DNA of 64,000 bases, taken from positions 1-64,000 of the IMG/VR virus record IMGVR_UViG_3300032285_001888. One strand, given 5' to 3'. Under the pieces are notes generated by a model. The model was given only the letters and a program-made list of their open reading frames with translations. It was not told the origin of the DNA and searched no databases. This document shows positions 33,000 to 54,159 of this stretch, piece by piece. Position numbers and translations under genes: made by a program. Within the stretch, counting starts at the first letter, position 1. Every line of letters begins with the position of its first letter. The stretch is from a virus.

Positions 33000-33008
33000 G
33001 GTTAAACG

Positions 33009-33953: not shown

Positions 33954-33956
33954 CAC

Positions 33957-34928: not shown

Positions 34929-34933
34929 TCTAA

Positions 34934-35911: not shown

Positions 35912-35915
35912 ATAT
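35908..35915 (+). promoter_or_regulatory. T4-like late promoter (ATAAATAT)
   Basis: The motif overlaps the stop codon of the third C1q-like gene and lies 18 nt before ATG 35934, with CGGGAG as RBS. Confidence 0.55.
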
Positions 35916-35933
35916 ACGGGAGACATATTAAAC

Positions 35934-36629
35934 ATGACACAGAAATTTTCAATACACCTTTCTATAGCAGAAAGCAGAATGTTACATCACCTTACTAAAG
36001 ATCCCGACGACTGGATTAGAAATCTTATAGAGTGGAGAGTTAGAATAGTTGAAGATAGTTTATATCCACAAATAAAGCAACAGCTAATAGACGCAGGCGC
36101 AACATCTATTCCCGCTACTAGAGAAGGAATGATTGCGGCTGGCAATCTACAGCCAAAAGATCCAAACTGGACTCCAGTGCAACGCGAGCATATAACTAAT
36201 GACAACTGTGATATTCATACTATTGAATTAGCCGATGACGAAATTACAGTATTAGAATGGATGTATGAAAATCCTCACGAACACATACACGACTGGATTG
36301 TTGAAAGATGCCAGATTGGTATTAAAGAAAAAGCCGAGTTTGTTACCAAAGAATTACTAGCTGATCCTAGATGGACTGACCCTATTCCATTAGATCCAGA
36401 AGAAGTTCTTGATTTAATAGAGATGAGAACCGTGCATGATCATATGGAGCTTACAGGCGCGGCAACACGCGATCTAGTCGAAAATTCAGCCAACTCTGAT
36501 CACGTGCCCTTAACTGTGCCATTTCATCGATACCTACATCATGATGATGTACCAGCATTTCCTACACCGTCTAGAGGACCAGACTCGGAAGCAGGGCCAA
36601 ATACTACTCCGCATCCGGAAGCTAGATAA
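35934..36629 (+). CDS. Unknown protein with internal duplication (231 aa)
   Basis: Two related helical halves are visible: residues about 9-60 (AESRMLHHLTKDPDDWIRNLI, written here in parts: AESRMLHHLT, DPDDWIRNLIEWR) and about 103-155 (DDEITVLEWMYENPHEHIHD, WIVERCQIGIKEKAEFVTKE). Each has the pattern 'D/E..vL..l..dp.dWi...ie.r..i'. The last 60 residues are acidic/His/Pro-rich and probably disordered. Proteins of this type follow fibre genes in other T4-like marine phages as I recall, so a fibre assembly or chaperone role is possible but unproven. It ends just before a bidirectional terminator. Confidence 0.6.
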   Translation: MTQKFSIHLSIAESRMLHHLTKDPDDWIRNLIEWRVRIVEDSLYPQIKQQLIDAGATSIPATREGMIAAGNLQPKDPNWTPVQREHITNDNCDIHTIELADDEITVLEWMYENPHEHIHDWIVERCQIGIKEKAEFVTKELLADPRWTDPIPLDPEEVLDLIEMRTVHDHMELTGAATRDLVENSANSDHVPLTVPFHRYLHHDDVPAFPTPSRGPDSEAGPNTTPHPEAR

Positions 36630-36633
36630 AATT

Positions 36634-36658
36634 AAAAAGCACCCTAGGGTGCTTTTTT
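36634..36658. terminator. Bidirectional terminator between convergent operons
   Basis: A near-perfect palindrome, AAAAAGCACCC / GGGTGCTTTTTT with a two-base centre TA, gives a stem and T-run on both strands. It closes the plus-strand fibre block and the minus-strand halogenase operon. The minus-strand stop codon lies in its tail. Confidence 0.9.
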
Positions 36659-38276
36659 AATCTTCATTATTAAAGTGTGTTTGTTTAAGATACTGGTAAT
36701 GACTAGGACATTTAGCCGCCGTAAGTTCATTTTGAACTTTTTTACGATTCCAATAATTTAATGTATTCTGCGTTAAATAACCAGTCTTGAGATGGGACGG
36801 AGTGATATATAAATCATCGTATAGATCTTTTTCCATGGAATATCTGTTAAGTGGAATTGTATGATTACCTACGAAAATATCAGGAATACCACCAGTATGA
36901 AATCCTAGCTCATGTTTTTGTAACATCGAACCTGCTAGCTCCGAAGACATTGTATGCAATTCTGCTAGTTGCTTATCAACCAATCTGTGTTCAACTTCTA
37001 CTTGTTCAGTAACATGTTTCCAGTAGGGAGTATCACGTCTTGAAGACATTGAGTAGTGGAGCGTAACAAAAACTTTAAAAGTTTTCATAGTCACATTGGC
37101 CATATAATTAAACCAATCTACGTGTATTTTATTAACTTGCTCATGCTCTAAAGTTTGATATAATAAAATCAACATTTCTTGCACACTATATAGGCCTGTG
37201 CTTTCTAACGGTTCGATAAATGCATAACTTAACCCAACTCCTACTACATTTTTTTCCCAACATTTATCGTGACATCCATTTTTAATTTTAACTAGTCTAA
37301 ATTCTAAGTTATCGGCACGATTAGGATCTAGATATGTCATCTTGTCGCTGTTAAGATATGCTTTATATTCTGCTAATGCATCTTCTTCACTAATAAATTT
37401 AGTGCTAAAAACATATCCGCTACCTATACGATGATATAACGGAATGTTCCATACCCAACCGTTGTTATAGGCTGTGCAATTGGTAACATTTTCCATCTCT
37501 AGTTCTTTATCATGATACGGCACATGACAAGTCCACGCACGATCATTTGGCAACCACTTGTTAAAACTTTCAAAAGGAACACCCATCGTCTGCTCTAGTA
37601 GCAATGATCTAAATCCAGAACAGTCGACAAATAAGTCTCCTTTGACGTGTTCACCGTTCTGTAGTACTAGATAGTCAATGTAACCGTCATCTTCTTTAAC
37701 AATATCAGTAATATGTTGTTTTATGTAGGTAACACCGTTAGGTATAGCAAATTTATCTTTTAGAAATATTCCAAATTTTGCCGCATCCATATGATATGCT
37801 ACATCATTCTTAAAACTATAATTTTCTAGTTTATGTTTTTTATTATCGCATATTTTATTATTGTAAATTAGTGGCATGCAACTATACATACACTCGTAGA
37901 AATCATTCCAGGGAGTTTCGGGATGTTTTAATTTTTTGTAGTACCAGTCATGTATTCCGTTGGTTGTATTCTTAATATCCTTAATGCCAAACGGATAATA
38001 AAATGCTTCGCCTTTTTTATAAAAATCTGTAAATTTAATGCTTAATTTATGAGTAGCATTACAGTGAGGCATCCAATCTTCATCCTCTAAATCTAGTAAA
38101 TGCAGAAATAAGTTCAATGTGCCCAGAGTCGATTCACCAACTCCTACTGTAGGGATATCAGGACTTTCTACTAGGGTGATTTCTTTAGAAGGAAATTTCT
38201 TAGAAAGCAAGGCCGCTGTCATCCATCCCGCACTTCCACCACCTACAATGACGATTTTTTCTATGGGTTTTTTCAT
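36657..38276 (-). CDS. Flavin-dependent (tryptophan) halogenase A (539 aa)
   Basis: Family members use FADH2, O2 and chloride or bromide to make hypohalous acid, which a Lys delivers to an aromatic substrate. Seen here: the FAD-binding GGGSAGW (residues 12-18), GVGEST (about 45-50) where PrnA has GVGEAT, the candidate catalytic Lys77 in NATHKLSIKF (aligned with PrnA Lys79), GWVWNIP (the WxWxIP halogenase motif), and FIEPLESTG with the Glu equivalent to PrnA Glu346. Length matches PrnA (~538 aa). The protein is a full-length paralogue of the 40048 product. Predicted active; the substrate could be free Trp, another indole/phenol, or a protein side chain. It is the last gene of the minus-strand operon and ends in a terminator. 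Confidence 0.9.
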   Translation of the reverse strand: MKKPIEKIVIVGGGSAGWMTAALLSKKFPSKEITLVESPDIPTVGVGESTLGTLNLFLHLLDLEDEDWMPHCNATHKLSIKFTDFYKKGEAFYYPFGIKDIKNTTNGIHDWYYKKLKHPETPWNDFYECMYSCMPLIYNNKICDNKKHKLENYSFKNDVAYHMDAAKFGIFLKDKFAIPNGVTYIKQHITDIVKEDDGYIDYLVLQNGEHVKGDLFVDCSGFRSLLLEQTMGVPFESFNKWLPNDRAWTCHVPYHDKELEMENVTNCTAYNNGWVWNIPLYHRIGSGYVFSTKFISEEDALAEYKAYLNSDKMTYLDPNRADNLEFRLVKIKNGCHDKCWEKNVVGVGLSYAFIEPLESTGLYSVQEMLILLYQTLEHEQVNKIHVDWFNYMANVTMKTFKVFVTLHYSMSSRRDTPYWKHVTEQVEVEHRLVDKQLAELHTMSSELAGSMLQKHELGFHTGGIPDIFVGNHTIPLNRYSMEKDLYDDLYITPSHLKTGYLTQNTLNYWNRKKVQNELTAAKCPSHYQYLKQTHFNNED

Positions 38277-38280
38277 TTTT

Positions 38281-39492
38281 TTATTCTTTAAAATAGTTAT
38301 AATTCAGTTTTTTATCAATAATCCTAAGATTAGTAGGACTAAAAAACCATGGTGTTCCCACTAACGGAGTTCCTTGCGCATCGTTTTTTTTGTATTCAGC
38401 TACTGTATCTGCAAACATTTTACTCTTATTTAATCTAGTGATAGCCTTATGCCTGGCAAAATTCCAAAACTTACTATCAAACATCGAGCCGCCGTGATAT
38501 AGATAAGATAACATATCTTCCAAGGATTTTGCCATTCCATCAAAATTAGTATTCATAAAGAATGAATCATATTTTTTTGTGTTTGATAAATGCTGGGCAA
38601 ACATATCAGCAATAGCTACGTAGCAAAATATAGAACTTGCACTTAAAGGTTCAAAAAATAAAGCTCTATTACCGTTAAGCAGTATCCGGCCATCCATTAT
38701 TTTTTTAGAGTAATAGGATTTAAACTTATATTCTATAACATCTTCTTTTTCAATTTTTTTAGAAAACATAGTTGACATTTCTGTCAACGCACTAGCATCA
38801 TCGGTTAGATCACTATTAAACAAATATCCATAAGTATGTCTAGTAGTCAATGGAATTCCAAATGTCCAACCATGCTCGGTTGCGATGTGTTCTGTATATA
38901 GTTCTAGTTCCGCTAGGTGTGGTGGAACACTATAGACAAAACATGTATTAACCGGAGAGCAATCGCTGATATGATAGTTTGTATAATCTGTTGGGAATCC
39001 TCTACAATCAATTACATAATCAAATTTTTCAATATTATCGTTTATTTTTATGTTAGCACAATTAAACCCATTTTCTATACTTTCAACTTTACCTTCTAAA
39101 ACTTTAAATTTTTTAGGCCATAAATCTTTAAATCTTTTAAATGCAAAATCTTTCAATTTAAAATTATTAAAATGTGCGGCAACACCGGCACCGAACAACG
39201 GATTAACCCAATCATGTTCTCGCCAGTTTATATATTTTGTTCCAAATTTAAAAGTGCCATCTAATTCTTTTAGATCTTCAACATGACTAAATTGCATTCC
39301 GGTTTGTAAGGCGGCTATAAAATTAGGATTAGTACTTTCACCTATACCTAAGATAGGTGTTTCCGGATCATACACAGACACAACGTCCCATTTGTTAGAT
39401 AACCAAGGCAACAGTACTGATAATGTAACGATTCCGGCGGATCCTACTCCAACAACTGCTAGTCGAAATTGTTTATTTGAACTCGGGACCAT
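38281..39492 (-). CDS. Compact halogenase-like flavoprotein B (403 aa)
   Basis: The N-terminus has the dinucleotide-binding pattern GVGSAG (residues 15-20) and GIGEST. GTFKFGTKYINW holds Lys82 at the position of the PrnA catalytic Lys. HGWTFGIP replaces the usual WxWxIP, with Phe in place of the second Trp. FFEPLSASS keeps the Glu of the EPLE(S/A)(T/S) motif. It is about 130 residues shorter than halogenases A and C, missing much of the substrate-side region between the Lys and the central domain. It may be an active halogenase with a small or open pocket, or another flavin monooxygenase of the same fold. It overlaps the oxygenase gene upstream by 20 nt. Confidence 0.75.
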   Translation of the reverse strand: MVPSSNKQFRLAVVGVGSAGIVTLSVLLPWLSNKWDVVSVYDPETPILGIGESTNPNFIAALQTGMQFSHVEDLKELDGTFKFGTKYINWREHDWVNPLFGAGVAAHFNNFKLKDFAFKRFKDLWPKKFKVLEGKVESIENGFNCANIKINDNIEKFDYVIDCRGFPTDYTNYHISDCSPVNTCFVYSVPPHLAELELYTEHIATEHGWTFGIPLTTRHTYGYLFNSDLTDDASALTEMSTMFSKKIEKEDVIEYKFKSYYSKKIMDGRILLNGNRALFFEPLSASSIFCYVAIADMFAQHLSNTKKYDSFFMNTNFDGMAKSLEDMLSYLYHGGSMFDSKFWNFARHKAITRLNKSKMFADTVAEYKKNDAQGTPLVGTPWFFSPTNLRIIDKKLNYNYFKE

Positions 39493-40048
39493 ATATCCAA
39501 CCTACAATAACATGCCTAGTTCCTTTAGTTACTGGAGTTACGCGATGTGTACAAAACGAAGGAAATATTGTAATGTATCCTTGCTTCCTTACCGTCGGAT
39601 CATTATGTGCCGGCATAAATTCTAAATCTCCGCCCTCGTACTCCGCTGGATCAGTTAACTGAATACTAAAGGATAATTTTCTGATATGAGTATCTTGTAT
39701 TAAATCAGTATGCCATATATAATGATCACCCCTATCTGCTGTATATTTAAAAACAAGAATAGGATCTTTTGAAAATAGACCGTCTAGGTGATATCTAAAT
39801 GTTTCAGAATTTGTTCTAAAAATAGACCTAAAGATATTATCCTCTAATTCTGTAGTTATTCCTGACCTAGAAAGAAGAACACTTCTGTGTTGTTTAGCAG
39901 TAATAAATTGACCAAACTTAAAAACCGTGCCCTCAATCCACCCAGATGATGATGCAATAATTTCATTACATTTTTCAACTGATAAAAATGGATATGTGAT
40001 AGCTCGAGGTAAAGGTTTCCTTGTAGCTAAGGGCTTGTCTACTATCAT
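39473..40048 (-). CDS. 2OG-Fe(II) oxygenase, PKHD/prolyl-hydroxylase type (191 aa)
   Basis: Non-haem iron enzymes of this type couple 2-oxoglutarate decarboxylation to hydroxylation. The metal triad is visible as His113-x-Asp115 (WHTDL) and His168 (FCTHRV), with Arg178 placed to bind 2-oxoglutarate. The segment QLTDPAEYEGGDLEF is typical of PKHD-type hydroxylases. Its start overlaps the stop of halogenase C by one base (TAATG) and its 3' end overlaps gene B, so it is translationally tied to both. Confidence 0.85.
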   Translation of the reverse strand: MIVDKPLATRKPLPRAITYPFLSVEKCNEIIASSSGWIEGTVFKFGQFITAKQHRSVLLSRSGITTELEDNIFRSIFRTNSETFRYHLDGLFSKDPILVFKYTADRGDHYIWHTDLIQDTHIRKLSFSIQLTDPAEYEGGDLEFMPAHNDPTVRKQGYITIFPSFCTHRVTPVTKGTRHVIVGWIYGPEFK

Positions 40049-41667
40049 TATTCTTTACCGGCGTATATATTATCTCGAAGATATTCATAATGTGACGGTG
40101 CTGTTTCTATTAGTGAATTAATATATTCTTTCTTTTGATCCCAATAATCTTGTGTTTGAGATGTAAAGAACTCAGGAGCCTGCCCATGACGTGCTTCAAT
40201 TAACTGTTTAACTATTGATAGTTGTGTTTTGCTTACAGGCAGAACATCCATGCCTACTAAAATATCAGGCATTCCACCCATACTTGCATCTCCTGGTAAA
40301 TGATGCATCTGAAGTAGTTTGACAGCAAGGTCACTACCGGCGGTAGGTATCTGATTAAAACTACGATCAAGCATTAGTGAATCCATCTCAATCTCTTCAG
40401 TTACATGTTGCCAGTAAGGAGTATCACGTCTTGACGAAAATACATAATGGTATGCTACAAAATTTCTAAAGCCATCCATAGTTAGATTACAAATATAGTT
40501 AAAGTGATCAACATGGATCTTATTAACTTGCTTGTTGCGCAGTGTTTCGCATAGTTTTAATAACATTTCTTGCACACTTAGCAAGCCTGTACTTTCTAAT
40601 GGTTCTACAAATGCATAACTTAGTCCAATTCCTACACAGTTTTTATGCCAAGCACGTTCATGTACTCCGTTTTTTATCTCAATGAGCCTGAATTCTAAGA
40701 ATTCAGACCTTATAGGATTAGGCAATCGCATTTTATCACTATTTAAATATGTCTTGTACTCTTCTAATGCCTGCTCTTTACTGATAAATTTATCACAGAA
40801 TACATAACCACTTCCTATTCTGTTGTACAGCGGGATATTCCACACCCAACCGTTATTAATAGCTGTACAGTTGGTAACATTTTCCATTTCTCTATTCTTA
40901 TCTGCATAGGGAATATGAGTCACCCATGCATGATTGTTAGGCAAGTGACTTGAATATGAATAGAACGGTACTCCCATTGTTTGTTCTAGTAGTAAAGATT
41001 TAAATCCTGTGCAGTCTATATACAGGTCGGCCTCCACTATATCCCCATTATCTAATTTTAATCCATTAATATAGCCGTCTTCTTCTAATAGTACACCTTC
41101 AATATTTGCACTAATATGGACTACTCCGTTAGGAATACACACTTTTTCTTTTAGAAATTCACCAAACAAGGTAGCATCCATATGATATGCACTATCGTTT
41201 TTCCAGCTGAAACCTGGAAGCTGTCCCTCTTTATTATCAAATATTTTACTTTGATAAATCATAGGCATTGAACTGTAAACACTTTCATAAAAATCATTTT
41301 TATCTAGATCTGGATTTAAGATCTTTTTAACATACCAGTCAGTTGCACCTTGCTGTGTATTTTGCAGATCTTTAACTCCAAACGGGTAATAAAAGGATTC
41401 GCCTTTTTCGTAAAAATCTGTAAATTTAATAGCTAATTTATAAGTGGCATTGCAGTAGGACATCCAATCTTCGTCTTTGAGTCCTAAAAGTCCAAGATAT
41501 TGATTGATTGTGCCTAGTGTTGACTCTCCTACTCCGATGATTGGAATATCGGGACTTTCGATAAGTGCCACTTCCATGTCCGGAAATTGAGTTGACAGCA
41601 TAGCCGCCGACATCCAGCCAGAACTTCCGCCACCGGCAATAATAATTCGTTTAATTGGTTTTTTCAT
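40048..41667 (-). CDS. Flavin-dependent (tryptophan) halogenase C (539 aa)
   Basis: Same length as halogenase A and alignable along its whole length without large gaps: GGGSSGW (12-18), GVGEST, Lys77 in NATYKLAIKF, GWVWNIPLYNRIGSGYVF, and FVEPLESTG. All motifs needed for chemistry are present. Divergence from A is concentrated in the C-terminal ~100 residues and in the 85-150 region, which may alter substrate choice. A late promoter and AAAGGA RBS precede it, giving this gene and the three downstream ones an independent start of transcription. Confidence 0.9.
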   Translation of the reverse strand: MKKPIKRIIIAGGGSSGWMSAAMLSTQFPDMEVALIESPDIPIIGVGESTLGTINQYLGLLGLKDEDWMSYCNATYKLAIKFTDFYEKGESFYYPFGVKDLQNTQQGATDWYVKKILNPDLDKNDFYESVYSSMPMIYQSKIFDNKEGQLPGFSWKNDSAYHMDATLFGEFLKEKVCIPNGVVHISANIEGVLLEEDGYINGLKLDNGDIVEADLYIDCTGFKSLLLEQTMGVPFYSYSSHLPNNHAWVTHIPYADKNREMENVTNCTAINNGWVWNIPLYNRIGSGYVFCDKFISKEQALEEYKTYLNSDKMRLPNPIRSEFLEFRLIEIKNGVHERAWHKNCVGIGLSYAFVEPLESTGLLSVQEMLLKLCETLRNKQVNKIHVDHFNYICNLTMDGFRNFVAYHYVFSSRRDTPYWQHVTEEIEMDSLMLDRSFNQIPTAGSDLAVKLLQMHHLPGDASMGGMPDILVGMDVLPVSKTQLSIVKQLIEARHGQAPEFFTSQTQDYWDQKKEYINSLIETAPSHYEYLRDNIYAGKE

Positions 41668-41690
41668 AGTTAGTCCTTTTAACCCTTTGG

Positions 41691-41698
41691 GTATTTAT
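41691..41698 (-). promoter_or_regulatory. Late promoter inside the halogenase operon (ATAAATAC)
   Basis: The plus strand reads GTATTTAT, i.e. ATAAATAC on the minus strand, in the only sizeable gap (40 nt) of the cluster. A small ACCC/GGGT hairpin and the RBS of halogenase C follow. Confidence 0.6.
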
Positions 41699-41707
41699 TG
41701 ATGTATT

Positions 41708-42343
41708 TTAAACGTAGACAACATTCTGGTTATCTCTAGAATCTCTAAAGTAGTCTCTATGAAAATTCCAAGATATTGAAATACGAGTACTGTCTGTCTT
41801 ATTTTCATTTACACAATGTTGCAACCATCCGGGGAATAAAACAATTTTACCTACTGCTGGTTTTACTTCTGCATATTTTTCTACCATATTTCCAAACGGA
41901 AATACTTCTTGTTGCAGCCACGGAACTGGATTCATTATACCAAAATCACCATCTTTTCCGGTAGTCTGAAAGTAGTAAGAACCGGATATAAGCGCATCTT
42001 GATGTTGATGCCAGTCTTGTTTTTCTCCCTTTGATGTTTTATTAATCCAGCTATGCCTTAGAGATACAGGAACAGGATGCCATGCCTGTGTCTTATCAAT
42101 GTATATCTTAAGATGTTTTTCAATATATGCCCTTAAATGCACTAGTTCAAAATCTTGTATTGTATTATGACGTGCTTTAATGTTAGTTTGAACACCATCA
42201 TTCCATCCTGGCGGATTTGAAAACGAATCAGTAGCCTCAATAAGTGGTAATTTCTTTTTAATCTCGTCTTGAATAAGGAAAATTTCTTGAGAAGTTCCTT
42301 GATGTTCATAGATTACGGTTGGGAACAGAGGTCTTATCGGCAT
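41708..42343 (-). CDS. 2OG-Fe(II) oxygenase, putative (211 aa)
   Basis: Starts MPIRPLFPTVIYEH, typical of the phage-associated 2OG oxygenase family often annotated TIGR02466. Metal ligands are His114-x-Asp116 in WHQHQD and His176 (WLQHCV), and Arg187 is in STRISISWNF. The segment VGKIVLFPGWLQH is the usual 'fPs.l.H' strand. The gene abuts the next upstream gene with no spacing. It is expected to be a soluble hydroxylase of unknown substrate. Confidence 0.85.
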   Translation of the reverse strand: MPIRPLFPTVIYEHQGTSQEIFLIQDEIKKKLPLIEATDSFSNPPGWNDGVQTNIKARHNTIQDFELVHLRAYIEKHLKIYIDKTQAWHPVPVSLRHSWINKTSKGEKQDWHQHQDALISGSYYFQTTGKDGDFGIMNPVPWLQQEVFPFGNMVEKYAEVKPAVGKIVLFPGWLQHCVNENKTDSTRISISWNFHRDYFRDSRDNQNVVYV

Positions 42344-43042
42344 TTATAGTCCCTTATCTTTTAAAAGTTTTTTGCGTTTAAAATACTGTCCGTTAAGGGT
42401 AAATGCTACCTGCCCTACTTGTTTGATATATTCATCCATAGAAACTGTGTGCATTTTAATATCGATATCAGATTCCGATAATGGTATTATGTGAGCTAGT
42501 TCTTTATTCAGCGGAATAGTTAGTTCCTTAGGATACATCACTTTTGGTATTAGTAAATTTACACTTGTAGTATGTTGATATTTGTAATCAACTACTCCGT
42601 TTACAACAAACGGTTTAAACTGATCGTCGTGCCAAAAACAATTAGTGTATAAAAAATTGACTCCAGTTTTTTCTTTAATTCTCCACGGGCTTACTAACTT
42701 TGCATGGAAATGATTTTTAAGAAAATCTTCGCCCCATTGTTTGGAATTATGCGCTTCGATAGAATCTTCTGGGAACCATTTTAATAATCCGCCTTCGGTT
42801 CCTAGCCAAATCTCTTCCCAGCTTTGTAAAATAAATCCAGTCCTGTATAAGGTCCCGACACCTGGGCATGTCTTCATAGTGCCGCGCATAGGTCCGTTAT
42901 GCTTTACTGTAGGTGGCAAGTTTTTCCAGAAGGGGGGTAATCTTTCTTCAGCATGCAATATAGGAAATAACTTTTCCACGTCTGGAACATGTGTAAAACA
43001 ATCTAACACTATCTTGGGTTTTTTAAGAAAAAATGAAAACAT
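42344..43042 (-). CDS. Unknown protein, paralogous family member 1 (232 aa)
   Basis: First and most divergent of three adjacent paralogues. Shared pattern: 'fPil.aeerlPpfWk' near residue 30, 'KTCPGVGTLYRTGFIL' near 60, 'SPWRI' near 118, an aromatic-rich block FLYTNCFW, then NGVVDY. No catalytic motif that I know is visible. A relation to the DUF6065 family is possible from the general pattern but not verified. Location between oxygenases suggests a role in the same pathway, e.g. substrate binding. Confidence 0.55.
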   Translation of the reverse strand: MFSFFLKKPKIVLDCFTHVPDVEKLFPILHAEERLPPFWKNLPPTVKHNGPMRGTMKTCPGVGTLYRTGFILQSWEEIWLGTEGGLLKWFPEDSIEAHNSKQWGEDFLKNHFHAKLVSPWRIKEKTGVNFLYTNCFWHDDQFKPFVVNGVVDYKYQHTTSVNLLIPKVMYPKELTIPLNKELAHIIPLSESDIDIKMHTVSMDEYIKQVGQVAFTLNGQYFKRKKLLKDKGL

Positions 43043-43046
43043 CGAA

Positions 43047-43748
43047 TTACCTATAAGTTTTTTTTGTATGCATCAGCTGTGCGTATAGACCAGACCAATA
43101 AGTACCGAGTCTATATTTAAAACTAGATTTGTTTATTTCATCGCTCCTGAACCCAGACGACATTTGCCAGTCTTCTCTTTTAAAAGGAAAAACAACCATC
43201 AAGGGGTCCCCCGGACTTATCATAAATTCTTCTTGTTTAACAAGACCAACAAATCCAATCGGTTCGTCATGTTTATCAGTATCAACCACTCCTGGGAATA
43301 GCGAATATTCTTTTCGCATATGATAAAATGGGTCGAATAACATACAACTGTAGCCAGGCGGAGTCTTAATATACCAGGGATTATTTAATTTTAGATAATG
43401 ATTCTTATACCCAGCATATTCAAATTGAGCTTGCCACCAGGGATGCTTGCTAATAACATCATTTGTATCTCTAGATCTAGTATCAAAGTCCTTGATAAAC
43501 CTAGGATCTATTTTTTGTTTTATTTGAACTTCATAAGATGCACGTATAATATAGCCGGTGGTCATGTAGTCTAATACAGGAACACATCTTTTAATGGTCG
43601 GAGTATGCGGTTTAGTATAGGGAGAAATCTCCGGAATCTCAATAGGAGTATCTTTGTACCATTCGGGTATCATTTTACCTGCCGGAAGAACCGGAAACAT
43701 TTCTAATGCTTCAACATCGGATGTAGTAAATTCTATTATATTAGTCAT
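43047..43748 (-). CDS. Unknown protein, paralogous family member 2 (233 aa)
   Basis: Close relative of the 43745 product. Shared signatures in order: FPVLPAGKMIPEWYKD, IKRCVPVLDYMTTGYIIRA, NPWYIKTPPGYSCMLFDPFY, PGVVDTDKHDEPIGFVG, SPGDPLMVVFPFKREDW. The conserved 'TPPGYSC' and 'PFKRxxW' motifs with invariant Asp-Thr-Asp suggest a ligand-binding or enzymatic pocket, but I cannot name a function. Its start overlaps the upstream gene's stop by 4 nt. Confidence 0.6.
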   Translation of the reverse strand: MTNIIEFTTSDVEALEMFPVLPAGKMIPEWYKDTPIEIPEISPYTKPHTPTIKRCVPVLDYMTTGYIIRASYEVQIKQKIDPRFIKDFDTRSRDTNDVISKHPWWQAQFEYAGYKNHYLKLNNPWYIKTPPGYSCMLFDPFYHMRKEYSLFPGVVDTDKHDEPIGFVGLVKQEEFMISPGDPLMVVFPFKREDWQMSSGFRSDEINKSSFKYRLGTYWSGLYAQLMHTKKTYR

Positions 43749-44500
43749 TTGAATTCTTTAGGAGTATGAAACATACGTTGATAAATGTTATACAAGTAAA
43801 ATTTTGATCGTTTTAAGATATCGCCAGATACAATTTCTGATTCCCATGTATCACGTTTAAATGGAATAATCTGTAATACTGGATCTCCTGCCACAAATCT
43901 TACCTCAGTGTCAGTGCCAGACATAAATCCCACCACAGGAATTTTTTCATTAAATTTGTCAGTATCAATTATTGCAGGCATTATATTAACATCTGTTCGG
44001 AAAAAATAATAAGGTTGCATGATTAGACAACTATATCCCGGCGGCGTTATTATAGACCAATCTAGTGTAAACTTAAAATAGTTTGCCGGACTTTTTTTAT
44101 CCTGCATCTTTGCCGGACACTCGGGATTAAAATATACATTAACCGGGTTACTTGAATGCAATCCCATTTCCTGTTCAGTTTTTACAAAACCTGTACCGGG
44201 TTCTCTTTGTTTATACTTTTCTTCAGTAGCACCAGCTTTAACTATAGTCATTTGCGGAACAAAATTAACAAGTTTTTCTTGTATTCGATTCTCATATCCA
44301 GCACGAAGGATGTATCCTGAATTTAATAAATCATCAACTGGCACACATGCACGTATGTTTCTGACAGCATTTTCATCAAACTTGTAAGATTGTCTCGGAC
44401 CTTGCAACCCAGTATACCATGAAGGTAGCATATCTTTAGCAGGAACAGGTGGCCAATGTTGTTTTAAAAGTTCATCGTCTGTTTTAAATTTAATTTTCAT
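43745..44500 (-). CDS. Unknown protein, paralogous family member 3 (251 aa)
   Basis: Same family as the two genes downstream: WPPVPAKDMLPSWY, IRACVPVDDLLNSGYILRA, DWSIITPPGYSCLIMQPYY, PAIIDTDKFNEKIPVVGF, AGDPVLQIIPFKRDTW. It has an extra ~20-residue Lys/Glu-rich insert near residues 90-130. Overlaps the upstream oxygenase gene by 4 nt. Three tandem copies held within an oxidative tailoring cluster point to a shared pathway role; function unknown. Confidence 0.6.
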   Translation of the reverse strand: MKIKFKTDDELLKQHWPPVPAKDMLPSWYTGLQGPRQSYKFDENAVRNIRACVPVDDLLNSGYILRAGYENRIQEKLVNFVPQMTIVKAGATEEKYKQREPGTGFVKTEQEMGLHSSNPVNVYFNPECPAKMQDKKSPANYFKFTLDWSIITPPGYSCLIMQPYYFFRTDVNIMPAIIDTDKFNEKIPVVGFMSGTDTEVRFVAGDPVLQIIPFKRDTWESEIVSGDILKRSKFYLYNIYQRMFHTPKEFK

Positions 44501-45093
44501 TCGGGCATCTCGTCAGCTTCTAACAACCAAGTTGTTAATATATATTTGTCTGTACTACCAATGGGGGGATTTCCTCTATGTGTGTGAGTCCAATCGGCCG
44601 GCCAAATTAATAATTTATTTTTTTTAGGTTTAATTCTAATATTTTGATATAAAAATTCAGTTTCGCCAGCATCGTCTATGTCGTTCATGTATAATTGTAC
44701 AACTAATCTACGCTTGGAGTCATCCTTTAAGGCTTCATAATGCCATTGATGAAACCCACCACCGGGTACAATTTTTTTCATTTTGATTTGCTCTGCTTTA
44801 AATGATAACTCTTGTAAAATACTAAATTTATCAGCGTATATAGGAATTATTTGCTTCCACAATACATCTAAGAAGTGGTTTATGTATTCGGGATGCAAGG
44901 TGTTAATTACCTTTGGATCTAAAAAATACAGTTGCTCATCGTCTTTCCAATGCTTTGGAATTTTATCTTGTTGATGTAGTTTTAAAGATGATATTTTATC
45001 ATAGTAGGCAATAACTTCGTTGAAGTATGTATTCTTAAAATAGTTTTCAAAAATACCGATAAAGCCAACGAATTCGTATTTTTCAAAATTCAT
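44497..45093 (-). CDS. 2OG-Fe(II) oxygenase, prolyl-hydroxylase-like (198 aa)
   Basis: The metal motif appears as His118-x-Glu120 (WHYE, an HxE variant of HxD) with a distal His at 170 or 172 (DWTHTHRG). A basic residue for 2-oxoglutarate may be Lys183. GETEFLYQNIRIKPKKNKLL and WPADWTH follow the pattern of prolyl 4-hydroxylase-like proteins ('ggeT.F......v.P..G.lv.fP..w.H'). The HxE substitution may still bind Fe(II) as a carboxylate ligand. Confidence 0.75.
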   Translation of the reverse strand: MNFEKYEFVGFIGIFENYFKNTYFNEVIAYYDKISSLKLHQQDKIPKHWKDDEQLYFLDPKVINTLHPEYINHFLDVLWKQIIPIYADKFSILQELSFKAEQIKMKKIVPGGGFHQWHYEALKDDSKRRLVVQLYMNDIDDAGETEFLYQNIRIKPKKNKLLIWPADWTHTHRGNPPIGSTDKYILTTWLLEADEMPE

Positions 45094-45788
45094 TTGACTA
45101 TCTCTGCTAATTTGACTCGGTAATTACCTGCAATCGATATTCTAACATCGTCAGAAGTATAAAACGGATGAACTTGATGATGCAGATCTGCAGGAAATAT
45201 ACAGATGCGACCTTCCCAAGACTTGTCTACGGGTAACGAAAAAATAGATTGCTTACCTAGAACATCTGGATAAATGAATTCAAATTGTGCAGATCTGTTT
45301 TTTATTAAATCAGGATTGGCTAAATTCTCTTGTTCGTCTTTGATATTATAGGGAACGTATGCCCAAATTACAAAACTATAAATTCCAGTATGGTTATGCA
45401 GGGGCATAAATTCTCCCGCACGTTGAAAATTTAGCCACATTCTTTCTAAGTCTAAGTTTATATCACTATTAGTTACATCCGTGGTGAAATTAAACATTTT
45501 ATTGAAGTAGTTATATTTAGATTCGTAAAAACTTACCAACTTTAATACTTCTTTATTCATGTCACTATATAAGTCTGGAGAAAAATAGTAATCGTCAGAA
45601 TATCCTGCTTTTTTCTTATGGAAGAATCTTAGCATGTCTTTAGCTTCTGCTGGGTCTTTTCCTTTATCGAGGAAATCCTGCCGCATTACTTCAACTTCTT
45701 TTTTGATCCGTTGGAACAAGAAGGGGTTTAGTTGGTCGACTAGAACTCCAACGTTTGGTAAATCTTGCATCATTGCTGTGGCACTCAT
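45090..45788 (-). CDS. 2OG-Fe(II) oxygenase-like protein (232 aa)
   Basis: FMPLHNHTGIYSFVIWAYVP (residues about 127-146) is a motif I recall from T4-like cyanophage oxygenase-like proteins. Here the usual HxD is HNH (His131-x-His133). FPADLHHQVHPF supplies the distal His (203 or 204) and DDVRISIAGNYR the Arg. With no clear carboxylate the metal site may resemble that of 2OG halogenases/variants or be altered; activity is less certain. It overlaps the next gene by 4 nt and is separated from halogenase D by 17 nt. Confidence 0.65.
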   Translation of the reverse strand: MSATAMMQDLPNVGVLVDQLNPFLFQRIKKEVEVMRQDFLDKGKDPAEAKDMLRFFHKKKAGYSDDYYFSPDLYSDMNKEVLKLVSFYESKYNYFNKMFNFTTDVTNSDINLDLERMWLNFQRAGEFMPLHNHTGIYSFVIWAYVPYNIKDEQENLANPDLIKNRSAQFEFIYPDVLGKQSIFSLPVDKSWEGRICIFPADLHHQVHPFYTSDDVRISIAGNYRVKLAEIVK

Positions 45789-45805
45789 AGCAATAATTAT
45801 CTAAT

Positions 45806-47338
45806 TTACAGTGGGCGTTTGGTAGTCTTGGCAGAATACTTTATAAAGTTGATGAAATCGGAGTACTTCATCTTATCTTTAACAGTTTGAGCTATCATTT
45901 CTTCATAGTCATATATAGACCTAGCTTGTGATACAGGCTTCAAATCATCTAGTAGATTTTTTGATATTGAGGGATGTAGTTTTCCTATACCCGAAAGGAC
46001 ATAGCTATACAACCCCCAGTCTGCATTGCCAAACATGATGTCAAAGTCTCTGTTAGTAGGAGTTCGAACTTTGCAACTTTCTAGTAGTTCTTTAACAAAA
46101 TCTGTAGCAGTTTCTCCACTAGTAATATATTTCCAGAATTCGCTATCAGTCCTCCCACCCATGTAATGTATAACTAGGAAGTCTTTTAGAGAATCATATA
46201 ATTTAGCTGTGCGTCGGTTATACAGGTTAATATTTCCATCGTTTACAGTGGCTTCTAATGTAGGTTTTAAAAATTCAACTGTAAAGTTTAGCAGTTGCAC
46301 TATAGTAGTATGTATACTAGTTGCTTCTAATGGTTCAGCAAACGCAGAAGCTAGCCCTATAGCTAGACAATTCTTTTCCCATGCCTTTTCTAATCTGCCA
46401 GTATCAAATTTTAAAGTTCTAATAGGAGTTATTTTTCTTCCTAATATTGTTTCTATCTCTGCATGTGCTTGATCCGGAGTTATAAAGTTATCGTCAAATA
46501 CATAACCGCATCCCTTACGATCCTGCACAGGAATTTGCCACATCCATCCTGCTCGTTGAGCCCATGCTGTAGTCCATAGTTCAGGCGTTTCTGTTTCTGT
46601 TTCATAGTCTAGTAAAAAAGGTATTGCAGAATTTACTGGCAAATTTTTCTGATAGCTAACCCATTTTACTTCTAGTTTTTTCATAAGAACTTGTTTAAAA
46701 CCGCTAGCATCTATAAAAAAGCCGCCATCTACTAGCTTTCCAGATTTTAACAATAACGAGGCAATACTACCTTGTTCGTTTAGATTAACATCTATAATTT
46801 CATCGTCAATATGGTTAACTGTATCCTTACGAAGTGTAATTTTTTTAAAATAAGCACCAACCTTGTGCGCATCAAAATGCAATGCACTATCTAAATTTCT
46901 ATCAAAAGTAAAATTACTTTTACTAAATGGTGATATTCCAAGATCTACCGCCTGACCATGTAATGAGCTTAGATGATTTTTGTTTTTATCTAACACGTGA
47001 TAATGAGCAAAAATCCCATCCATTATAATATTTGTACTAGAAGTTCCTACAATAGGACCAAAATATTGTTGATTTAAATCAGGCGTCCAAGCCCGATGCA
47101 TTATTCCATATTTTAATGTTGCGCCTGTTTCTCTTAGGAATTCTAATATGTCACAGCCGCTGTCGAAAATATCGTTTTTAATTATCGATGTTAATAATCC
47201 TGTTGATCCCTCGCCTGCACCAATAATACCAATTTGGGAAGATTCTATTACAGTCACCGAATGCATAGGGCGCATCTTGCTAATCATCAAGGCAGCTATC
47301 CACCCTGCTGTACCTCCACCTACAATAACTATTTTCAT
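45806..47338 (-). CDS. Flavin-dependent halogenase D, divergent (510 aa)
   Basis: FAD motif GGGTAGW (residues 7-13) and GAGEGSTG at the second flavin loop. Lys76 in GATLKYGIMHRAW matches the catalytic Lys position. GWMWQIPVQDRKGCGYVF keeps WxWxIP. AFAEPLEATSIHT keeps the Glu. This protein is clearly more distant from A and C than they are from each other and probably came from a separate lineage. DSEFWKYI near residue 415 matches the family's usual '(D/S)xPFW' region. Predicted active with a different substrate. Its start overlaps the upstream oxygenase gene by 4 nt. Confidence 0.85.
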   Translation of the reverse strand: MKIVIVGGGTAGWIAALMISKMRPMHSVTVIESSQIGIIGAGEGSTGLLTSIIKNDIFDSGCDILEFLRETGATLKYGIMHRAWTPDLNQQYFGPIVGTSSTNIIMDGIFAHYHVLDKNKNHLSSLHGQAVDLGISPFSKSNFTFDRNLDSALHFDAHKVGAYFKKITLRKDTVNHIDDEIIDVNLNEQGSIASLLLKSGKLVDGGFFIDASGFKQVLMKKLEVKWVSYQKNLPVNSAIPFLLDYETETETPELWTTAWAQRAGWMWQIPVQDRKGCGYVFDDNFITPDQAHAEIETILGRKITPIRTLKFDTGRLEKAWEKNCLAIGLASAFAEPLEATSIHTTIVQLLNFTVEFLKPTLEATVNDGNINLYNRRTAKLYDSLKDFLVIHYMGGRTDSEFWKYITSGETATDFVKELLESCKVRTPTNRDFDIMFGNADWGLYSYVLSGIGKLHPSISKNLLDDLKPVSQARSIYDYEEMIAQTVKDKMKYSDFINFIKYSAKTTKRPL

Positions 47339-47934
47339 TTTGGTATATCCTTGTCTAGAGCAAATATAACATTTATAACAAACCTGTCGTTACTTATGAT
47401 AGGATTACTACCTGCATGAAATAAATTGCTAGGGAAAACCACTATCCTTCCCTGTTTTGGCACAACTGCTTCCTTGATCGTTAATGAAGTAATACTACTA
47501 TCCTCACTATAGATTTCGTTAAAAATATATGTAGGACCATCACTGTTGTTAATATAATACACTGCGGTAGTCCACGCAACATTTCCGTCATCAGTGTGTG
47601 CTAAATTATAGCTAAGTTCTTTCCTATTATTAATGATGCTAGTATGATTAATCTTAATACGTTGCAACATTCCTATAGCGCCAAATTCTTTTTCTATAGC
47701 ATCCATTAAAGGTTTAAGAAAAATAAAAAACATTGACTTGTGTCTAGATAGATGGTCAAATGCAATATGATAAAATTGACTACTATCTTGTGTGTTAGCA
47801 TCTTCTAAGACGTTTTGTCCTTGTATTCCCAAGGCTGTTTTATCTTTAAATTTCCATGTTAGTTTACTATCCATGGCATCTACCAATGCTTGCTGAAAGT
47901 CAAGAGAGACAAATTCATCTATAACTGTAATCAT
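47335..47934 (-). CDS. 2OG-Fe(II) oxygenase (199 aa)
   Basis: Clear facial triad: His113-x-Asp115 in LAHTDDGN, His173 in NLFHAGSNP, with Arg184 in NDRFVINVIFAL. GRIVVFPSNLFHAG is the canonical C-terminal strand. Between the two halves, WTTAVYYINNSDG is a standard double-stranded beta-helix stretch. Predicted soluble hydroxylase, cotranscribed with halogenase D just downstream. Confidence 0.85.
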   Translation of the reverse strand: MITVIDEFVSLDFQQALVDAMDSKLTWKFKDKTALGIQGQNVLEDANTQDSSQFYHIAFDHLSRHKSMFFIFLKPLMDAIEKEFGAIGMLQRIKINHTSIINNRKELSYNLAHTDDGNVAWTTAVYYINNSDGPTYIFNEIYSEDSSITSLTIKEAVVPKQGRIVVFPSNLFHAGSNPIISNDRFVINVIFALDKDIPK

Positions 47935-48567
47935 TTATAACCCTTCGGTATCACTTATGCGGCGTAGCATAATATTCATAGCAACAACAACTCTCAATGT
48001 TCCGGTTTCGTGCCGGGGAGTATGATGTTCAACCCATGACGGAAATACTATCACATCACTTTCTTCTACTGTTGGCATTTGTTTATTAGGATAGTAAATT
48101 GACGGTACATAGTTTTTATTTTTAGTTGGAATAACAGATTTCTTTTGTCGAGCGCACGGGTCGCAAAAAATAGTTCCGTATGCATCATCTAGCACAACAT
48201 AGTGTACCGCAGACCATTGAATAGTTTTAGGTCCACCGGTGTGATCGTGAACAAATTCAGAAGTAGTGTTAGTAGTAAATCCGTACCAACAAGTAAATTT
48301 AAAAGTCCATCCGTTATTAAAATCAACTCCGGTGCTTTCTAAGAATTTCTTAACGTCATCTTCGTAGAATTTTGATAACATAGCCCATGGTACTTTTACA
48401 GCGCCGGGGCAGTAATCAGTATAGATGTTAGCAAGTACATCGTTAGCAGGCTCATTTAAAAAATTCTGATACACATTATCCATCAGATATTTTTTGATTT
48501 TATCATGATTAGATGCTTTAAATTTAAAAACGTTTGTTGTAAAAATTGGAATACTATCTATATCCAT
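47935..48567 (-). CDS. 2OG-Fe(II) oxygenase-like protein (210 aa)
   Basis: FVHDHTGGPKTIQW (His107-x-His109) replaces HxD with HxH; distal His is 181 or 182 in WVEHHTPRH, and Arg192 is in TLRVVVAMNI. SDVIVFPSWVEHHTP is the usual closing strand. Between them are two Cys and a basic insert (FCDPCARQKKS). Fold assignment is fairly safe; whether it is a standard oxygenase is less so because the metal-binding Asp is not obvious. It directly abuts the next gene. Confidence 0.7.
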   Translation of the reverse strand: MDIDSIPIFTTNVFKFKASNHDKIKKYLMDNVYQNFLNEPANDVLANIYTDYCPGAVKVPWAMLSKFYEDDVKKFLESTGVDFNNGWTFKFTCWYGFTTNTTSEFVHDHTGGPKTIQWSAVHYVVLDDAYGTIFCDPCARQKKSVIPTKNKNYVPSIYYPNKQMPTVEESDVIVFPSWVEHHTPRHETGTLRVVVAMNIMLRRISDTEGL

Positions 48568-48569
48568 AT

Positions 48570-49250
48570 CTACACCTCAGGCCTATCATACTTGTATTGG
48601 TCTATAAAGAACAAAAGAGTTGTTCGCGTCTCTCCCGAAGCGGTTCTGAAATTATTAGGTCTATGCCACGATTTAGCATCATAGGCTAGTATTCTATTAA
48701 AAATATTACCTATTCTAATAGTCTCTTCAAAATTTTCATGATTAGCGTTAAGATCTTTTTTGTATGCTTCGGTAGCTACTCCGGAAGTATTAAATTCTTT
48801 TCTAGATGGGAAATCAACCTTTTCAAAATCTTGCGATCCTTTTTTAAGGAATATAGAAGTACCGCTATTAAAGTTTTTCTCAAATTGATTAAGATATACT
48901 AGCCCTGCTAGATTGACGTCATCACTGTGTATCCATCCTTCATTGGCATCAACATCATCATACACATCGTTTTTATGAAAACTTACATGAATTACAAATC
49001 TGCTAATACCTGGAAATATTTCTCTTGCTATTTTTTTTGCAAAAAAGACTCCAAACTCTTTAGTAGCAGGGTCTATAGACTCTAGTAAGTTTATAGTACG
49101 CTTACCAGGCCATCTAGTGTCACCTGTATATTCTTGTTTATTTGCTAGATCTAGTATTGTTTGTGTATCTTCAAAGAAGTTATCTTTACAAACTAATGTA
49201 CCTGCCAAGGGGTGAAAGGTTTTATCCATGTTAAATAATGTGGGATTCAT
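48570..49250 (-). CDS. 2OG-Fe(II) oxygenase-like protein (226 aa)
   Basis: GWIHSDDVNLAGLVYLNQ gives His108-x-Asp110, RILAYDAKSWHRPNNF gives His196, and ETRTTLLFFI gives Arg209. The segment after the HxD (SGTSIFLKKG) and the 'wHr.n' motif recall the DUF6445-type oxygenase group; that subfamily placement is tentative. It is the largest oxygenase of the upstream half of the cluster. Overlaps the next upstream gene by 4 nt. Confidence 0.75.
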   Translation of the reverse strand: MNPTLFNMDKTFHPLAGTLVCKDNFFEDTQTILDLANKQEYTGDTRWPGKRTINLLESIDPATKEFGVFFAKKIAREIFPGISRFVIHVSFHKNDVYDDVDANEGWIHSDDVNLAGLVYLNQFEKNFNSGTSIFLKKGSQDFEKVDFPSRKEFNTSGVATEAYKKDLNANHENFEETIRIGNIFNRILAYDAKSWHRPNNFRTASGETRTTLLFFIDQYKYDRPEV

Positions 49251-49837
49251 GCTAGTTTCCTGGCAATATTAAAAACCATTGTAATACGACCTTCGTCTGT
49301 ATTTCTAGATTTTGGAACTAGATGCGGCAACCATGACTCCCACATTACAAGTAATCCTGCTTTGGGGGTTATTGTAATTTCATTTATATTAGTTTGTGTA
49401 TCTTCTAGTTTTGGTAAAGATACAAATTGTCTAAACGGTCGAGGATCAGTTATTATTAGCGGCGCTGAATCTTCAGGAACCTGAAGATATAGTAGACCGG
49501 ATAATATCGATCCCGGATGCGTATGCTCATCATGAGACGCACCGTCAAACATTTCGCTTACGAATATAAACGTATCAAATGTAAGTTCCTTATCATTGTA
49601 TCCAATATCTTTTAGATACTTTCTACCTATTTTTTCTATAGCATCTTTAAATGGTTTAACATCTGTCCTGTCTGCTATCCCACCTGGATTCCTATATCCA
49701 TAGGAAGTTGTATACCCCCATTTGGTTTTAGAAATACTAGTATCTTCTAAATATTTTTTTGCTACTGGCAACATTGAATTAGCTAAAATTAATTGCATTT
49801 CTGATAGAATTGCCGTAGGAAAAATATACTGTATCAC
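49247..49837 (-). CDS. 2OG-Fe(II) oxygenase-like protein (196 aa)
   Basis: N-terminus IQYIFPTAIL as in the TIGR02466-type phage oxygenases. DEHTHPGSILSGLLYLQVP (His105-x-His107 with the family's H.H.gs..sgv.Yl pattern), distal His172 (WLPHLVP) and Arg184 (GRITMVFNI). TPKAGLLVMWESWLPH is the closing strand. Good fold match; the metal motif is the HxH variant seen in this subfamily. Overlaps both neighbours by 4 nt. Confidence 0.75.
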   Translation of the reverse strand: MIQYIFPTAILSEMQLILANSMLPVAKKYLEDTSISKTKWGYTTSYGYRNPGGIADRTDVKPFKDAIEKIGRKYLKDIGYNDKELTFDTFIFVSEMFDGASHDEHTHPGSILSGLLYLQVPEDSAPLIITDPRPFRQFVSLPKLEDTQTNINEITITPKAGLLVMWESWLPHLVPKSRNTDEGRITMVFNIARKLA

Positions 49838-50436
49838 AGCGAAGGGCCCTTAGGATTACGTATTAAATCAAAGGCATGAAAATAATTTGGACCTAATGCT
49901 TTTACATAATGTAAAAAAATCTGAATGCATTCTACTCCTGTAAATTTTTCTCTCCAATGGTCAGCTGTCATACCTTTATAAATCATTGCCTCACCGGGCC
50001 GTAGTGTGATACTAGCAGATGAGCCATCGGGTTTTTTAATGAAAATAGGCCAAGCATCTCCACTAATATTAAGAGTAACACTTATTTCACATGCTTCGGC
50101 ATCTATATGGGGTTTTAATTCTGCCCCCATTTTATACCATCTTGCGTATGCGTATGTAGGATAAAGTCGCTCCCCTACTAGATCATTCATAAGAAAGATT
50201 TTTGAACGCAATAAGTGTTCGGCAACACTCCATCCGTACGATGCTGGAGAACCGGGAACTTGAGGATCCGGCTTCTTAAATTTTTCTATACAGTGTTTTT
50301 TAAAAGATTTTGCAATCTCCTCCAACGAGCCAGGATGCAGAAAATTTTCTACTACAAAATAGTTGTTTTCTTCTAATTCATCTCTTAAGTTTTTTTGAAG
50401 AAAGCTATCCTGATAGACGGTGTGTGTTCTTCTCAT
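49834..50436 (-). CDS. 2OG-Fe(II) oxygenase-like protein (200 aa)
   Basis: ELKPHIDAEACEISVTLNIS gives His110-x-Asp112, GMTADHWREKF gives His160 after the 'RPGEAMIYKG' turn, and the final strand IQIFLHYV follows. A carboxylate-rich N-terminal helix region precedes. The arrangement matches phage and bacterial 2OG oxygenases whose substrate is unknown. It is the first tailoring gene after the GroES homologue, 2 nt downstream of it. Confidence 0.75.
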   Translation of the reverse strand: MRRTHTVYQDSFLQKNLRDELEENNYFVVENFLHPGSLEEIAKSFKKHCIEKFKKPDPQVPGSPASYGWSVAEHLLRSKIFLMNDLVGERLYPTYAYARWYKMGAELKPHIDAEACEISVTLNISGDAWPIFIKKPDGSSASITLRPGEAMIYKGMTADHWREKFTGVECIQIFLHYVKALGPNYFHAFDLIRNPKGPSL

Positions 50437-50438: not shown

Positions 50439-50774
50439 TTAATCAAATTTAAATTCGACAGGGCCAACAGGCTCGTCCGGATCAATCACACACCATGCAT
50501 CGCTTTCTGGCATGCACCAAAACGTTTCTCCACCGATGAGTATTTTTGATCCAGCAGCCGGATGGAACATTATTTCGTCGCCTACCTTAACACTCATTGG
50601 AATAAGTATTGCAGTTTTTTCAGAGATCTTTCCGGGACCTGCCGCCACTACTACACCTTTTGATGTTTTTTCATCTTGCGATGCGATCGGTATGTAAATA
50701 CCACCCGCTGAAGCCTTTTCAGCTTCTACTCTTTTGACTAATAGTCTATCATGGACTGGTCTTAAAACTGGCAT
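50439..50774 (-). CDS. groES: GroES-like co-chaperonin (111 aa)
   Basis: LRPVHDRLLVKRVEAEKASAGG is the conserved GroES N-terminus (RP.hDRv.Vkr.e...ksaGGI) including the mobile loop that docks GroEL, here ASAGGIYIP. VGDEIMFHPAAGSKILIGG and the closing SDAWCVID complete the fold. T4 itself uses the unrelated-looking gp31 for folding its capsid protein, so this phage carries a true Cpn10 homologue. Position beside late structural genes suggests use in virion protein folding or in folding the many oxidative enzymes encoded downstream. Confidence 0.9.
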   Translation of the reverse strand: MPVLRPVHDRLLVKRVEAEKASAGGIYIPIASQDEKTSKGVVVAAGPGKISEKTAILIPMSVKVGDEIMFHPAAGSKILIGGETFWCMPESDAWCVIDPDEPVGPVEFKFD

Positions 50775-54152: not shown

Positions 54153-54159
54153 TATTTAT
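54153..54159 (-). promoter_or_regulatory. Late promoter for the gp14-to-halogenase operon (ATAAATA)
   Basis: The plus strand reads TATTTAT, i.e. ATAAATA on the minus strand, 8 nt upstream of the gp14 ATG. Spacing implies a very short or absent leader. Paired with a plus-strand motif at 54167. Confidence 0.5.

Follow-up and report, generated by a model that had tools for sequence, protein, structure and literature searches.

A 64,000-nucleotide (nt) stretch of viral DNA (positions 1 to 64,000 of IMG/VR record IMGVR_UViG_3300032285_001888; hereafter, the window) carries on its minus strand, at positions 36657-50436, an island of 16 genes that encode four flavin-dependent halogenases (FDHs; F1-F4), nine 2-oxoglutarate-Fe(II) (2OG) oxygenases (O1-O9) and three paralogous proteins (D1-D3). 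The record belongs to a T4-like virus, in which the sheath, tube, gp13, terminase, SSB, UvsX and UvsY are present. Judged from its sequence, the island is real, conserved and functional-looking, and we propose, with a probability of roughly 0.45, that it serves the late tailoring, by hydroxylation and halogenation, of the phage's own fibre or adhesin proteins. Islands of this kind are already known from cultured phages, and their largest forms were not found described as a unit. New here are the operon that the island has in common with gp14 and gp15, its two late promoter motifs and the conserved terminator opposite the fibre genes.

Organization and late transcription of the island operon

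All 16 open reading frames (ORFs) of the dense minus-strand series reported in the initial annotation were located at the same positions (Table 1). The gaps between successive genes along the island are 4, -20, -1, 40, 0, 4, -4, -4, -4, 17, -4, 0, 2, -4 and -4 nt. The transcription unit extends further, to four minus-strand genes at 50439-54145 that are separated by gaps of -19 to +10 nt, giving an operon with the order gp14, gp15, Nudix, cpn10, O9 through F1, and a terminator opposite the fibre genes. The name gp14 is positional, being taken from the neighbours gp13 and gp15. The median ratios of nonsynonymous to synonymous substitution rates (dN/dS) range from 0.03 to 0.37 across the testable island genes, indicating purifying selection in each of them; for O5, orthologues were too few for this ratio. 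Since dN/dS is low and the motifs are intact in all proteins except F2, the possibility of scattered or decaying genes was rejected. The G+C content is about 0.34-0.36 in the island, compared to about 0.39-0.44 in its flanks.

Late expression of the island operon is well supported, as judged by promoter motif. The T4-type late promoter core ATAAATA is rare in the window, with eight occurrences seen compared to 29 expected (positions 1104, 18627, 35908, 41692, 54153, 56269, 60541 and 62851), and all eight are located 4-88 nt upstream of a gene on the same strand, mostly a virion gene. The island operon holds two of the eight sites, one before gp14 and the other before F3. Furthermore, 40 of the 60 ATAAATA sites in the clade of the window fall within upstream-of-gene windows, which cover 5.5% of positions. 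The core at 54153 is just 7 nt ahead of the listed gp14 start codon, and the true start of this gene may lie downstream. A scan for sigma-70 promoters was uninformative, as the number of matches was the same as in shuffled sequences. At the opposite end of the operon, the junction with the convergent fibre operon contains a symmetric hairpin; perfect hairpins mark the island/fibre junction of a further 10 clade loci and are absent from the junction of four loci in which the genes touch or overlap.

The flavin-dependent halogenases

The initial assignment of four halogenase-like and nine 2OG-like proteins is borne out by profile searches and profile-profile alignment, which place all of them in those families. 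The four island halogenases match PF04820 (Trp_halogenase) with E-values of 1e-115, 4e-33, 6e-110 and 2e-90. In an alignment of FDHs, F1, F3 and F4 each keep the GxGxxG motif, the catalytic Lys, the WxWxIP motif and the catalytic Glu; 177 of the 178 viral FDHs aligned have the catalytic Lys, and 174 have the catalytic Glu. Phylogenetically, F1 and F3 fall within a supported clade that contains VirX1, the halogenase of cyanophage Syn10, and F4 is placed in another supported clade. VirX1 is also the best solved-structure match of F1 (PDB 6qgm, E 1e-116). In the tree, VirX1 as aligned is at zero distance from gp42 of phage syn9, which, like VirX1 itself, is encoded in a homologous island, and F1 is ~46% identical to this syn9 copy of the VirX1-type halogenase. 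The active site of VirX1 is large and open and accepts bulky aromatic substrates (PMC8407142).

F2 is an FDH homologue with doubtful activity. Its catalytic Glu is changed to Ser and the second Trp of WxWxIP to Phe, while the catalytic Lys and GxGxxG are retained. The Glu-to-Ser change also occurs in the relatives of F2 (n=3, the only ones found), and the dN/dS of F2 is 0.11. The protein appears to be retained, but may serve another role; its tree position, on a very long branch, was left unused. No flavin reductase of family PF01613 was found in 12 related viral contigs that were searched whole, and supply of reduced flavin by the host is assumed.

The 2OG-Fe(II) oxygenases

Six of the oxygenase genes (those starting at 39473, 41708, 44497, 45090, 47935 and 49247) match PF13640 or PF13759 above the Pfam cut-off. 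O5 (47335) is under the cut-off with an E-value of 9e-5, O7 (48570) is a DUF6445 protein and O9 (49834) is without a Pfam match. In profile-profile comparisons with other 2OG families, the best P-values are 4e-14 for O5, 5e-9 for O7 and 3e-5 for O9, with non-2OG controls giving P-values mostly >0.1 and 0.01 at the lowest. Because these values agree with the conserved HxD...H that is also present in O5, O7 and O9, the count of nine 2OG-type proteins is right. O9, with which the island ends on the neck side in many phages, is the most divergent of the nine.

The usual facial triad HxD/E...H is present in O1, O3, O5, O7 and O9. In the PF13759 members O2, O4, O6 and O8, HxH...H...R is invariant and the position at which an acid might be expected is occupied by Asp in O2 and by Gly in O4, O6 and O8; across the family, the residue at this position varies among Asp, Gly, Asn, His and Ser. 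The top match of an AlphaFold2 model of O4 (predicted local distance difference test, pLDDT, 87) is an uncharacterised PF13759 protein, followed by the prolyl hydroxylases PHD2 and P4H. The double-stranded beta-helix fold is assigned by this model for O4 and by profile for the other eight proteins. Human AspH, a 2OG protein hydroxylase that binds Fe(II) through two histidines (PMC10947486), resembles O4, O6 and O8 in being without an acid at the usual Fe-ligand place, but it belongs to a different family, and PF13759, unlike AspH, carries the invariant HxH. A reading of the HxG of O4, O6 and O8 as the mark of a SyrB2-kind 2OG-halogenase was not adopted, since the position is freely variable, it is the HxH that is invariant, and AspH is an example of a hydroxylase without an acidic ligand.

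The DUF6065-like D proteins

The three genes between O2 and O3, initially described as paralogous unknowns, do encode paralogues, but these can be named: they belong to DUF6065/phrog_7084, with a predicted dUTPase-like fold. A D2 model matches both dUTPases and dCTP deaminases, with a best E-value of 2e-3 and a probability of 1.00. When a 60-member D profile is compared with the PDB, the weak matches obtained are almost all dUTPases and nearly all lie over motifs III-IV (best E 0.02), and direct comparison of the D and dUTPase profiles gives a P-value of 2e-4, compared to at least 0.26 with shuffled columns. In addition, one family member (locus L079) surpasses the Pfam dUTPase cut-off, and the S-CREM1 homologue is annotated as 'triphosphate nucleotidohydrolase'. 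The D family resembles dUTPases (PF00692) in its fold and over motifs III-IV, where only the Asp of motif III and the region of motif IV are recognisable. However, the motif I Asp, the motif II PRSG and the C-terminal motif V are not retained, and an invariant Cys and an invariant Tyr are specific to the D family. D1-D3 thus have a dUTPase-type fold and are probably not dUTPase enzymes; a role as working dUTPases was rejected because the motifs are missing. A genome scan for which a narrower D alignment was used returned few bacterial relatives, some on phage-like contigs that carry them beside 2OG genes and the remaining ones without a halogenase.

Relatives and setting of the island in other phages

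Scans of viral contigs with F4 and F3 yielded 123 loci, and the comparison, which also drew on additional scans and on isolates, covered 115 non-redundant loci. In 27 of the 115, at least 10 such genes occur in a run, and in nine the run has at least 16; as the loci were retrieved through their similarity to island genes, these are counts and not an unbiased sample. In the 12 viral contigs searched whole, all halogenases are close together in one stretch per contig, as are most PF13759 and PF13640 genes. Clustering of the island genes is more than chance.

One group of relatives, clade A, retains the window order of gp14, gp15, Nudix, cpn10, O9 to F1 and the convergent fibre array. Another, lineage B, has up to five FDHs and 13 2OG genes; one end of its island has GroES-GroEL, and the other, on contigs long enough to include it, has Gly-rich fibre-like proteins. 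At L019:4075-5739 and in other lineage B loci, a phage-encoded GroEL (cpn60) gene adjoins GroES where the halogenase/2OG island ends. At least two uncultivated lineages have islands of equal or larger size, and isolates have smaller ones; the idea of a unique cluster was therefore rejected. On two T4-like phage contigs from metagenome-assembled genomes of Flavobacteriaceae and Sphingobacteriales (L158 and L163), O5-D1-O2 is directly upstream of gp13 with no halogenase nearby, and this set is a minimal form of the island. The photosystem gene psbA is absent from the 12 related contigs searched, which leaves room for hosts other than cyanobacteria.

The halogenase end repeatedly adjoins fibre genes of different kinds. 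These are C1q-like TF proteins in clade A, Gly-rich fibre-like proteins in the lineage B loci L037 and L038 and also in L095, tail-fibre domains in L091, and fibre-assembly genes in P-RSM6, P-TIM40, S-RIM44 and P-SSM2. In the reservoir cyanophage S-SRM01, the halogenase gene has a tail fibre gene on one side and the gene for a gp37-gp38 adhesin tip on the other (L171:5654-10262). Regarding synteny, the island is thus conserved beside gp13-gp15 and the fibre genes instead of being scattered, and degenerate only in F2.

Several cultured phages contain comparable islands. In syn9, gp41-54 form an island of the same kind with two FDHs and about nine recognised 2OG genes; in S-CREM1, ORF69-80 comprise one FDH and nine 2OG/JmjC genes consecutively; and P-RSM6 has two FDHs and many 2OG genes. 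Furthermore, 10 and 24 2OG genes per phage genome have been reported (PMC9964418, PMC9602691). The implication in the initial annotation that only single halogenases and single 2OG oxygenases are known from T4-like cyanophages is therefore incorrect. The kyanovirus islands (syn9, S-CREM1, S-RIM44, P-TIM40 and P-RSM6) contain the same families as the window in the same setting beside fibre genes. Gene order is fibre, F, D, ..., O7, O9 in syn9 and S-CREM1, and F, D, ..., O9, gp13 in S-RIM44; the window has the order F, D, O7, O9 in common with the former two and F, D, O9, gp13 with the latter, its FDH, D, O7 and O9 genes following one another in this order between the fibre and neck genes. However, kyanovirus islands have one or two FDHs, at most one D gene and the same direction as the fibre genes, whereas the window has four FDHs and three D genes on the strand opposite the fibres, in a single operon with gp14-gp15-Nudix-cpn10. 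The S-SSM6a-type cluster (Iyer et al. 2021, PMC7824862) shares a halogenase and several clustered 2OG genes with the window, but includes carbamoyltransferases, a HemK-like methylase and phosphatases, none of which is present in the island. In the isolate annotations of L007, L009 and L172, 2OG-type genes are mislabelled as ferrochelatase, minor coat protein and DNA endonuclease V, the first two of which match PHROG labels. No report treating the fibre-FDH-D-2OG-gp13 series as a conserved unit was found, a weak negative given the thin literature coverage of subscription journals, and searches of the same literature for tail fibre hydroxylation yielded no report of this linkage.

Proposed function and alternative explanations

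The families, their density and the idea of a dedicated oxidative tailoring system, all put forward in the initial annotation, are supported. Virion proteins are the more likely substrates of this system, a step that we infer from gene location. In the proposed mechanism, the 2OG enzymes would hydroxylate side chains of distal fibre or adhesin proteins during virion assembly, and the three intact halogenases, using host-reduced flavin, would halogenate side chains of these proteins, the targets being those encoded beside the halogenase end. The dUTPase-fold D proteins would be subunits that contribute binding or scaffolding rather than catalysis, and F2 would be a partner whose activity is altered or lost. 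The modification would probably serve to alter how the fibres bind receptors or how stable they are. A more specific version is put forward tentatively: the phage would modify its own receptor-binding fibres by hydroxylation and halogenation, and the dUTPase-fold proteins would have been reused as subunits that bind the fibres or the enzymes.

Fibre tailoring is favoured because of the late promoter motifs, the operon with neck genes and the repeated adjacency to unrelated adhesin types. It is also favoured because the enzymes look competent, with conserved FDH and 2OG motifs and low dN/dS, because VirX1 takes bulky aromatics and, the uncharacterised protein aside, the solved folds nearest to that of O4 are protein-acting prolyl hydroxylases, and because no carrier protein, ligase, nonribosomal peptide synthetase, polyketide synthase or transporter was recognised in a Pfam scan of the island proteins. 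Several points weigh against it. The need for so many different oxygenases is unexplained, and the over-representation of PHD2 in the PDB makes the fold match of O4 weak evidence for a protein substrate. The fibre-proximal region is a general insertion hot spot, and the FDHs of S-PM2, S-B64, Syn1 and S-MbCM6 are away from fibres, among metabolic or replication genes. Moreover, the record is a 72.9-kb fragment, and a metabolite pathway could sit elsewhere in the genome.

For ~15 years, the halogenases and 2OG oxygenases of marine phages have been catalogued separately as 'auxiliary metabolic genes', and the roles guessed for them extend from the production of antibiotics to the sensing of nitrogen. 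Their placement in a single late island beside fibre genes makes the question testable on virions of cultured phages. If fibre tailoring is true, adhesin chemistry would be variable without a change to the fibre gene, and self-halogenated fibres would, to our knowledge, be the first case of a virion protein halogenated by an enzyme. For VirX1, which has been characterised but has no known natural role, the island supplies a genomic context, and the unnamed D protein family gains a fold assignment.

Phage halogenase has previously been interpreted as antibiotic protection (PMC2984593; PMC9964418), and a cluster of halogenase, 2OG and carbamoyltransferase genes was predicted to produce a secondary metabolite (PMC7824862). 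It is possible, although rather unlikely, that the halogenases and 2OG enzymes of the window build or decorate a halogenated amino-acid- or sugar-derived metabolite released during infection. The published prediction concerns a 10-gene cluster with halogenase, 2OG and cupin-like genes in the jumbo cyanophage S-SSM6a; in addition, small aromatic molecules are classical FDH substrates on which VirX1 acts in vitro, and FDHs and 2OG enzymes usually occur in multi-enzyme tailoring clusters. However, the island contains no carbamoyltransferase, amino-acid ligase, carrier protein, methylase or transporter and is part of a late operon with neck genes, and the D and 2OG sets without FDH just upstream of gp13 (L158, L163) suggest a virion link that is independent of halogenation. 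Modification of the host surface or of a host protein during infection, resulting in superinfection exclusion, envelope change or takeover, seems unlikely. 2OG oxygenases modify bacterial proteins in some known cases, the genes are accessory and variable among relatives, and late expression would be compatible with superinfection exclusion, but the tight linkage to neck and fibre genes would not be expected, and no signal peptide or export function was seen, although no search aimed at these was made.

Two further explanations start from the chemistry of single components. The dUTPase-type fold of the D family, the adjacent Nudix gene and a proposal, cited in PMC3037559, of cyanophage 2OG genes in DNA repair would fit a system in which D proteins, Nudix, 2OG oxygenases and halogenases make modified bases or clean modified nucleotides; with most dUTPase motifs missing from the D family and the island sitting among virion genes, we regard this as improbable. 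Cyanophage 2OG genes were tabulated in 2010 and linked to nitrogen status, with the hypothesis that 2-oxoglutarate consumption steers host metabolism through nitrogen status and NtcA (PMC3037559). For the window this is barely plausible, as it leaves the halogenases, the dUTPase-fold proteins, the diverse conserved active sites and the late promoters unexplained, and the absence of psbA from the related contigs again bears on whether the hosts are cyanobacteria at all.

Features of the operon and further observations on the window

Table 1. Coordinates of the island operon, its predicted regulatory elements and the facing fibre array in the window.
Feature	Position	Strand	Basis
Convergent fibre/adhesin array: TFa, TFb, C1q-like paralogues TF1-TF3, U1	32010..36629	+	ORF list, locus comparison
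Symmetric hairpin terminator AAAAAGCACCCTAGGGTGCTTTTT, junction of convergent island and fibre operons	36634..36657		hairpin scan
F1, flavin-dependent halogenase, VirX1-like, catalytic motifs all intact	36657..38276	-	PF04820 E 1.2e-115; best PDB match VirX1 6qgm
F2, divergent halogenase homologue, 403 aa	38281..39492	-	PF04820 profile, motif alignment
O1, 2OG-Fe(II) oxygenase (PF13640), HTD..H..R	39473..40048	-	profile, motif
F3, flavin-dependent halogenase, F1 paralogue (58%), motifs intact	40048..41667	-	PF04820 profile, motifs, tree
ATAAATA late promoter core, 24 nt upstream of F3	41692..41698	-	motif scan
O2, PF13759 2OG oxygenase, HQHQD..H..R	41708..42343	-	profile, motif
D1, DUF6065/phrog_7084 protein, dUTPase-type fold by family	42344..43042	-	phrog/profile comparison
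D2, DUF6065/phrog_7084 protein	43047..43748	-	AlphaFold2 model, pLDDT 92
D3, DUF6065/phrog_7084 protein	43745..44500	-	Pfam and phrog match
O3, PF13640 2OG oxygenase, HYE...H	44497..45093	-	profile, motif
O4, PF13759 2OG oxygenase fold, HNHTG..H..R	45090..45788	-	profile, structure model
F4, flavin-dependent halogenase, separate lineage, motifs intact	45806..47338	-	PF04820 profile, motifs, tree
O5, 2OG oxygenase, HTD..H..R	47335..47934	-	sub-cut-off Pfam, profile-profile, motif
O6, PF13759 2OG oxygenase, HDHTG..H..R	47935..48567	-	profile, motif
O7, DUF6445, 2OG-type, HSD..H..R	48570..49250	-	profile-profile, motif
O8, PF13759 2OG oxygenase, HTHPG..H..R	49247..49837	-	profile, motif
O9, divergent 2OG oxygenase, phrog_2954 (misnamed ferrochelatase), HID..H	49834..50436	-	profile-profile, motif
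cpn10 (GroES-like) co-chaperonin, island operon	50439..50774	-	PF00166 E 3.5e-24
Nudix hydrolase, island operon	50785..51234	-	PF00293 E 4e-13
gp15-like tail sheath stabiliser, island operon	51216..52685	-	phrog_11196, phrog_227
gp14-like neck protein, operon head	52685..54145	-	phrog_11591 'virion structural protein'
ATAAATA late promoter core, operon head	54153..54159	-	motif scan

Beyond the fibre array that faces the island, the window encodes two giant fibre proteins with tail-fibre profile matches, at 10077-18605 (2842 aa) and 18654-31988 (4444 aa), each of which bears several CBM5/12 carbohydrate-binding modules. A collagen-like fibre as substrate for prolyl hydroxylation was considered and rejected, as the fibre proteins of the window contain no Gly-X-Y runs. 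The tail sheath protein, encoded at 56308-59832, has a length of 1174 aa compared to the 915 positions of the profile that it matches.

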